NCBI GenBank assembly: GCA_903891095.1
Contig: CAITDI010000093.1
Span: 1 to 45,880 of the forward strand
From: an uncultured bacterium
GTDB taxonomy: Bacteria > Planctomycetota > Phycisphaerae > Phycisphaerales > SM1A02
Direction: 5' to 3'
DNA: 45,880 bases
The notes under the pieces are model-generated. The model was not told the origin of the DNA. It was given only the letters and a program-made list of their open reading frames with translations, and searched no databases. The position numbers were made by a program, and so were the translations under genes. Position 1 is the stretch's first letter, and the number at the start of each line of letters is the position of its first letter. Positions 24,268-25,805 of the stretch are shown one piece after another.

Positions 24268-24357
24268 TGTTCGGAAAAAAGTAGGGTGATGCCCACAGCT
24301 CGAACCGATGTGGTACTGTCCGAACATACACCGAACAGAAGAGCGGATTCTGTTCGG
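24268..24357 (+). promoter_or_regulatory. recA control region with SOS-box-like GAAC-N7-GAAC
   Basis: The heptamer CCGAACA occurs four times: inverted at 24268-24274, direct at 24320-24326 and 24331-24337, inverted at 24351-24357. The two direct copies give GAAC-N7-GAAC, the geometry of the alphaproteobacterial LexA box (GTTC-N7-GTTC). The last two copies form a 10-base perfect inverted repeat (CCGAACAGAA / TTCTGTTCGG, seven-base spacer, 24331-24357). I could not place a confident -35/-10 pair. The recA ATG is 147 bases downstream. Confidence 0.6.
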
Positions 24358-24503
24358 GTGTCAGGCAGTCGATCCGCTGGTCAGGTTCAACTCGGGCGCG
24401 AATGAGAAACCGAGTGGGAAAGCCACGAGCAGGCGCAGAAAGCGCGTGATTTCGGGACCCATGGAAAGATCGCGCCCCCAACAGGCTCTAGAAGGGGATA
24501 CAG

Positions 24504-25805
24504 ATGGTTGCAGCGACTCAGAACGGAAAGAACAGCACGCCCGCCAGCCCGGCAAGCGCCGCGACAAGCGCCGCGATAAGCAACGCGAACGCCGGCCCCC
24601 GGCCCGCCACAGGAACCAGTCCCATGCCGACTCCCTCCAGCAACACGACCCGTCCCGCTTCCGCCGCCATCAGCATCGAGGACAAGCCGCGCGTGAGCGC
24701 AGCGCCCGTGCTTTCGAAGGCCGACGCCGCCAAGGCTGCGCACAAGGTTGATGAAGAGCGCAAGGGCAAGCTTGCCGCCATCGAGCGCGCCATGGGCGCG
24801 ATCGAGAAGGCGTACGGCAAGGGCTCGATCATGAAGCTCGACGGCGATTCGCTCGCGCCGATCCCGTCGATCCCGACCGGAGCGCTGAGCCTCGACCTCG
24901 CGCTCGGTGGCCGCGGTCTGCCGCGCGGCCGCATCATCGAGATCTTCGGCCCTGAGTCCTCGGGTAAGACCACCCTCGCGCTCACCGTCGTCGCCAATAC
25001 CCAGAAGACGGGCGGCGTCGCCGCCTTCATCGACGCCGAGCACGCGCTCGATCCCTCGTGGGCCAAGCGCATCGGCGTCAACCTCGATGAGCTGCTCGTG
25101 TCGCAGCCCGACACCGGCGAGCAGGCGCTCGAGATCTGCGAGATGCTCGTGCGCTCGAACGCCGTCGACATCATCGTCATCGACTCGGTCGCGGCCCTCA
25201 TCCCGAAGGCCGAAATCGAGGGCGAAATGGGCGATTCCGTCGTCGGTCTCCAGGCCCGCCTCATGTCGCAGGCCATGCGCAAGCTCACCGGCGCCATCGC
25301 CAAGAGCGAGTGCATCGTGATCTTCATCAACCAGCTCCGCGAGAAGATCGGCGTCATGTTCGGTTCGCCCGAGACGACCACCGGCGGCAAGGCGCTCAAG
25401 TTCTACGCGTCGGTCCGCATCGACATCCGCCGCATCGGCGCGATCAAGGACGGCGAGCGCAACATCGGCAACCGCGTCCGCGCGAAGGTCGTCAAGAACA
25501 AGGTCGCGCCGCCGTTCCGCGAAGCCGAGTTCGACATCATGTTCAACGAAGGCATCTCGACCACGGGTGACCTGGTCGACCTCGCCGTCGAGGAGAACAT
25601 CATCGAGAAGGCTGGCTCGTGGTTCGCCTACAAGACCACGCGCATCGGCCAGGGCCGCGAGAACGCGAAGGCGTTCGTCAAGGAGAACCCGGCGATGTTC
25701 GCGGAGATCCGCCAGCGCGTGATCGAGAAGCGCATGGCCGCCAACGAGGGCACTGCCAAGAAGGGCCCCGCGCCGAAGGACGACGACGGCGACGAAGACG
25801 AGTGA
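24504..25805 (+). CDS. recA: Recombinase RecA with long N-terminal extension
   Basis: 433 residues, about 80 longer than usual at the N-terminus. Residues 1-80 are low-complexity Ala/Ser/Thr/Pro; normal RecA sequence begins near [24 protein letters not shown]. Walker A GPESSGKT is at 149-156, and [30 protein letters not shown] and [13 protein letters not shown] follow. The C-terminus is acidic (DDDGDEDE), as normal. GAAGGGGA lies at the right distance from ATG 24504, so the extension appears genuinely translated; Met41 is the next possible start. The upstream region has SOS-like repeats, and a terminator lies 163 bases after the stop. Confidence 0.96.

Follow-up and report, generated by a model that had tools for sequence, protein, structure and literature searches.

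A predicted head-to-tail LexA operator in front of recA in a probable member of the planctomycete order Phycisphaerales

The DNA motif bound by LexA changes between bacterial groups, and its direct-repeat form is remarkable in that a symmetric dimer must read an asymmetric site. Outside the Alphaproteobacteria, an alphaproteobacterial-type LexA box occurs in Acidobacterium capsulatum, whose lexA was reportedly acquired laterally from Alphaproteobacteria, going by the title of Mazon et al. 2006. In the Alphaproteobacteria themselves the LexA operator is GTTC-N7-GTTC (PMC8565304, PMC3323433) and in Gram-positive bacteria it is GAAC-N4-GTTC (PMC3323433), according to the sections of these articles that were available. 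According to the available text of PMC3108266, which refers to a different study, the E. coli motif is not recognised by planctomycete LexA, and no stated LexA motif for planctomycetes was found in the portions of the open-licence literature at hand (Planctomycetes/Planctomycetota, Phycisphaerae, Rhodopirellula).

The site described here has the same half-site core and the same 11-bp head-to-tail spacing as the alphaproteobacterial operator and is, like the A. capsulatum box, an alphaproteobacterial-type case outside the Alphaproteobacteria. It lies on contig C93 of a 3.6-Mb genome in 131 contigs, and this contig is the window, i.e. the whole stretch of DNA that was analysed (45,880 nucleotides). 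The parts of the site and the gene behind it are as follows.

24268–24274, minus strand: upstream inverted heptamer, an exact CCGAACA match (TGTTCGG on the plus strand)
24311–24319, plus strand: probable extended -10 element TGGTACTGT, identified by eye, abutting the putative operator on its 5′ side
24320–24326 and 24331–24337, plus strand: direct heptamers CCGAACA, both exact, with an 11-bp period
24321–24337, plus strand: putative direct-repeat operator CGAACATACACCGAACA, kept across the genus
24322–24325 and 24333–24336: GAAC, with N7 between the two copies
24331–24357, no strand: perfect inverted repeat of 10 bp, formed between the second direct heptamer and the 3′ inverted one
24351–24357, minus strand: 3′ inverted heptamer, an exact CCGAACA match (TGTTCGG on the plus strand)
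24490–24497, plus strand: probable ribosome-binding site AGAAGGGG of recA, identified by eye
24504–25805, plus strand: recA, 433 aa (TIGR02012, 546.9 bits, cut-off 325.3; PF00154)

An earlier note on this DNA had described the layout, and it did so correctly to the base: GAAC-N7-GAAC spans 24322–24336, four exact heptamers are present with two inverted copies flanking the direct pair, and the 3′ pair forms a perfect inverted repeat in which CCGAACAGAA (24331–24340) and TTCTGTTCGG (24348–24357) are complementary along all 10 bp and enclose a 7-base spacer. The 3′ inverted heptamer begins 20 bp after position 24331, where the second direct heptamer begins, and the upstream inverted heptamer stands 63 bp before that same heptamer, a distance shared by 4/4 genus members compared. 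The note had also called the geometry alphaproteobacterial, and a positive control agrees with it: a scan of up to 500 bases found GAAC-N7-GAAC before lexA in 5/5 alphaproteobacterial loci and GAAC-N4-GTTC in Collinsella. The same scan found neither pattern before lexA in Bacillus, Streptomyces or E. coli, hence it misses inexact sites.

We consider it very likely that the recA site is an SOS operator, bound head to tail by the single LexA of this genome. The LexA half-site would be CCGAACA, with two copies in the same orientation at a distance of one helical turn (11 bp). At recA the operator would lie just 3′ of the probable -10 element, and at lexA it would overlap the probable -10 of an upstream promoter, so that bound LexA would block transcription. 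Upon DNA damage, RecA filaments would trigger the self-cleavage of LexA, and recA, lexA, uvrD, radA and probably imuA would be switched on together. The sequences, their conservation, their positions upstream of these genes and the family membership of LexA were observed, from which we infer LexA binding, dimer geometry, repression and damage induction.

Single heptamers and the bare GAAC-N7-GAAC were rejected as evidence for an operator, as both are too common. The window contains 19 copies of CCGAACA (5.36 expected from shuffles, 6.9 from an order-2 Markov model) and bare GAAC-N7-GAAC matches the genome 155 times (reversed control, 53), hence the claim needed more than the evidence of the earlier note. 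Elsewhere in the window than 24268–24357 there are 15 CCGAACA copies, 12 of them on the plus strand. The 17-mer pattern CGAACATNNNCCGAACA, defined after inspection of the recA and lexA sites, has two exact copies in the 3.6-Mb genome, one at recA and one upstream of the only lexA; allowing a single mismatch adds no match and allowing two adds 16, against six in all for the reversed control. The expected number of exact copies is 0.045 (order-2 Markov model, 129 kb of own sequence), which describes rarity, since the pattern was derived from these two sites; independent testing comes from relatives and from further genes. Within the window there is one exact copy, and the four matches at up to three mismatches are not above shuffles (3.75).

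That no lexA lies in the window was rightly observed before: at E ≤ 0.001 a single gene of the genome, on contig C61, matches the LexA DNA-binding domain, and the sole S24 peptidase match falls in this gene too. The product is a LexA homologue, matching TIGR00498 over its full length with 155.4 bits (curated cut-off 110.95) and both PF01726 and PF00717 above cut-off. Upstream of this gene, GAACATCTCCCGAAC (C61:3664–3678) has an arrangement identical to that of the recA site. The putative operator begins 692 bp 5′ of the lexA start codon, and in the other seven genus loci read it lies 658–871 bp from the start of the LexA match. Open frames lie in the interval, one of which overlaps the lexA start in the loci shown, hence lexA may be the second gene of one transcript. 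A promoter of the form TTGCG-N18-GAACAT, predicted by eye, is directed at lexA in 9/9 lexA-type genus loci, and the first half-site of the operator is the -10 hexamer of this predicted promoter. The far-upstream operator likely controls lexA; we go no further than this because the site is distant, open frames intervene and a divergent gene, conserved in the loci read, lies on the other side of the operator. This divergent gene may share the operator with lexA. It carries the motif LFPLDRSYTFLNHGSFGS or a close form of it (L011 2357–3550, minus strand, and eight lexA loci). Several genus members also have a second, weaker CGAACA-type direct repeat 34 bp past the first (L011 3697–3713; L080).

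Relatives in the genus retain both sites. Among the matches listed, CGAACATNNNCCGAACA is exact in 18 of 30 genus loci, with recA downstream in nine and lexA within 1.5 kb in eight, while the remaining locus ends 135 bases past the site and has a lexA-like flank. Matches with up to two mismatches, among those listed, outnumbered the reversed control in 13/13 genus genomes, the present one included, where the control differs from CGAACATNNNCCGAACA in its dinucleotides and 4/13 genomes are <83% complete. The sequences flanking the site at recA are unlike those at lexA, so the common 17-mer is not simply one promoter that was copied. In the recA-type loci GATGTGGTA occupies the -10 position in 9/9, followed by NNNT in 8/9 (the exception is L081), and an extended -10 element TGGTANNNT, recognised by eye, is found immediately 5′ of the operator in 8/9. 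This position of the predicted promoter suits a repressor.

The earlier note had proposed looking for the motif at lexA, imuA and other repair genes, and besides the exact copies at recA and lexA, two-mismatch matches to CGAACATNNNCCGAACA are found before uvrD, radA and a probable imuA. The first lies 139 bases before the first residue used of uvrD/pcrA (L201; PF00580, 283.9 bits), the true start of which is uncertain, and the second starts 54 bases 5′ of the radA/sms start codon (L199; TIGR00416, 488.1 bits, cut-off 403.05). The third lies 829 bases before the matched part of the probable imuA (L193), which is assigned by the ImuA model at E 1.1e-7 and 31.9 bits, below the curated cut-off of 150. 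The first half-site is weak at both imuA (CTAACA) and radA (CAAACT), and 13/16 two-mismatch matches in this genome are not before a recognised repair gene, as judged by eye.

Among relatives, the radA site is present in 5/5, which were chosen because the motif was listed there beforehand. For uvrD, the pattern CNAACA-N5-CGAACA, made after the site in the present genome was seen, occurs with 0–1 mismatch in five of 10 loci, with two mismatches in four and in none of the forms in one; three of the 10 loci have an additional two-mismatch hit, probably by chance. Ten genus genomes have an ImuA match; the imuA site is present in five of them, and its absence in the other five may reflect an ImuA match inside the gene, with the 1.5 kb fetched falling short of the promoter. 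Two loci were left out of the imuA count, one with the motif but no recognisable imuA (L299, genome G107) and one with an imuA-like promoter context only (L298, genome G101). The imuA site of the present genome (L193 1501–1526) combines the direct repeat with CCGAAC-ATCG-GTTCGG (1511–1526), a palindrome of Gram-positive type, and the two have one half-site in common.

It is unlikely that LexA binds here but reads the inverted pair (24331–24357), with the upstream GAAC incidental. In 9/9 recA-type genus loci the 3′ inverted heptamer is unchanged and keeps its spacing, and inverted GAAC-N4-GTTC sites do occur elsewhere, both in the imuA site just described and at recA in the sister genera g8 and g14, where CCGAAC-N4-GTTCGG directly follows TTGACA; g14 also has CCCGAACAAAAGTTCGGG at lexA. 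The earlier note's separation of the site from the Gram-positive palindrome thus stands for the genus itself at recA and lexA, where the half-site core is that of the Gram-positive operator but the half-sites run head to tail, and does not extend to these sister genera or to the imuA site. However, the exact element common to the recA and lexA sites is the direct repeat, there is no TGTTCGG in the 30 bases past the site in the nine lexA-type loci, and in the inverted pair at recA GAAC and GTTC are separated by 15 bases, a spacer 11 bases longer than that of the Gram-positive palindrome. GAAC-N4-GTTC was absent upstream of recA in 4/4 genus members compared. As a separate observation, GAACCGTGGTTCAGGAA upstream of lexA is common to genera g8 and g10 (L071, L072) and contains GAAC-N4-GTTC with flanks other than CCGAACA.

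The head-to-tail arrangement extends in weaker form through the family. The word ACCGAACA is found upstream of recA in 20/25 other genomes of the family, where any word reached at most nine in one shuffled set. CC.AA lies exactly 11 bp 5′ of CCGAACA upstream of recA in 11/17 other family genera, with three for the next offset (-22), and the looser C.AA at 11 bp is found in 11 genera against five for the next offset. The family thus appears to be characterised by an 11-bp head-to-tail arrangement whose upstream partner is weak. Across the order, strict GAAC-N7-GAAC on either strand is present at recA in 9/70, all in the same family, and at lexA in 8/51, six in the same family and two in family f2 with other flanking bases. 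The strict direct repeat is not the commonest spacing order-wide (recA, DR2 12 vs DR7 9, n = 70; lexA, DR30 9 vs DR7 8, n = 51), because it is concentrated in few genera. No CCGAACA-type site was found in family f2, the one other family covered by motif discovery, which there (26 recA and 18 lexA upstream regions) gave only G+C-rich words.

An RNA hairpin that the 3′ inverted repeat would form in the leader of recA, by itself or in addition to LexA binding, is an improbable explanation of the site. The 10-bp stem is stable (z -3.66, with 0/200 shuffles as stable), but it has no Rfam match, and by eye the heptamers are invariant across relatives while the inner stem pairs are often broken, a pattern that fits protein half-sites better than a hairpin.

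The earlier note had left a choice between a LexA of this lineage that uses a direct-repeat site and another DNA-damage regulator, and the first is favoured by the exact motif at both recA and lexA. That a regulator other than LexA binds CCGAACA is very unlikely: the great distance between the upstream site and lexA itself would suit it, but recA and lexA are the genes that the two exact sites precede, and the genome has one complete LexA.

Similarity of the operator to that of the Alphaproteobacteria raises the matter of where this LexA came from. The best 80 named records nearest to it are mostly labelled Phycisphaerales, Phycisphaerae or other Planctomycetota, the rest having another group label or none, and it is these labels that make the order Phycisphaerales probable for the present genome. 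Phycisphaerales-type LexA also occurs in records labelled Candidatus Kuenenia and Bacteroidia (L110, L152), labels that are probably wrong. Phycisphaerales sequences (10 rows) and alphaproteobacterial ones (5) form separate clades in a tree of 19 LexAs, with support of 100/99 each, and the present LexA does not fall inside the alphaproteobacterial one. Its recognition helix differs from those of alphaproteobacterial LexAs and it is one residue shorter before this helix than all nine outside LexAs.

Acquisition of lexA from Alphaproteobacteria, with the operator geometry arriving alongside, is most unlikely, since the identical geometry and a best 19-LexA tree that groups the two clades against the four remaining sequences (at a weak 78/58, with a program warning of long branches meeting) are set against the missing residue, the separate clades and a DNA-binding domain with 29–34% identity to five alphaproteobacterial LexAs, values close to those for Bacillus (33%) and E. 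coli (35%). Hence the present LexA, unlike the lexA of A. capsulatum, gives no clear sign of lateral acquisition. The geometry in common with Alphaproteobacteria looks convergent because the DNA-binding domain is no closer to theirs than to that of Bacillus or E. coli, and it is most likely of independent origin; as the best tree does pair the two clades, if weakly, such an origin is favoured rather than demonstrated.

The recognition helices of LexA are similar but not identical in the present genome (SKVTVFEHVESL), in g14 with its palindrome (SKVTVFEHVQAL) and in g8 with a palindrome at recA (SKVTAFGHVEAL). Over all spacings up to 32 in 110 lexA upstream regions, GAAC-N7-GAAC (19, control 1) and GAAC-N4-GTTC (15, control 4) came top, in a set that includes near-copies and whose control regions reach 18 at other spacings. 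Mapped on a tree of 97 distinct LexAs, the palindrome requires one change and the strict direct repeat six, under a strict scoring of absence that treats degenerate sites as missing. Linker length of LexA was not associated with direct-repeat use (long, one with and four without; short, 11 with and 52 without; Fisher p = 1), in a test that dropped 42/110 rows without a measurable linker, including most rows from the genus. It is quite possible that the family evolved the alphaproteobacterial head-to-tail LexA operator independently and preserves the steps, with a strong CCGAACA half-site whose partner 11 bp upstream is degenerate in most genera, two strong half-sites in the present genus, a switch to the palindrome elsewhere, and a similar recognition helix throughout.

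A direct-repeat LexA operator is itself known, and what appears new, within the limited open-licence literature available in part, is the host group and the apparently independent origin. A second such case, together with palindromic close relatives, would offer naturally occurring variants with little change in the protein and much in the site, so that the shift of LexA between palindromic and head-to-tail sites becomes testable with few purified proteins. If the family did preserve such steps, operator geometry would change as half-sites are rearranged along a single face of the helix, with the protein following via a flexible domain arrangement. The sites also provide a concrete predicted SOS regulon for these planctomycetes.

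The recA product has a feature of its own. Its match to the RecA model begins at residue 89 of 433, and ahead of the conserved core are about 88 residues (24504–24767) rich in S, T, A, P and N. Similar N-terminal extensions, beginning MVA, are found in several relatives from the genus.
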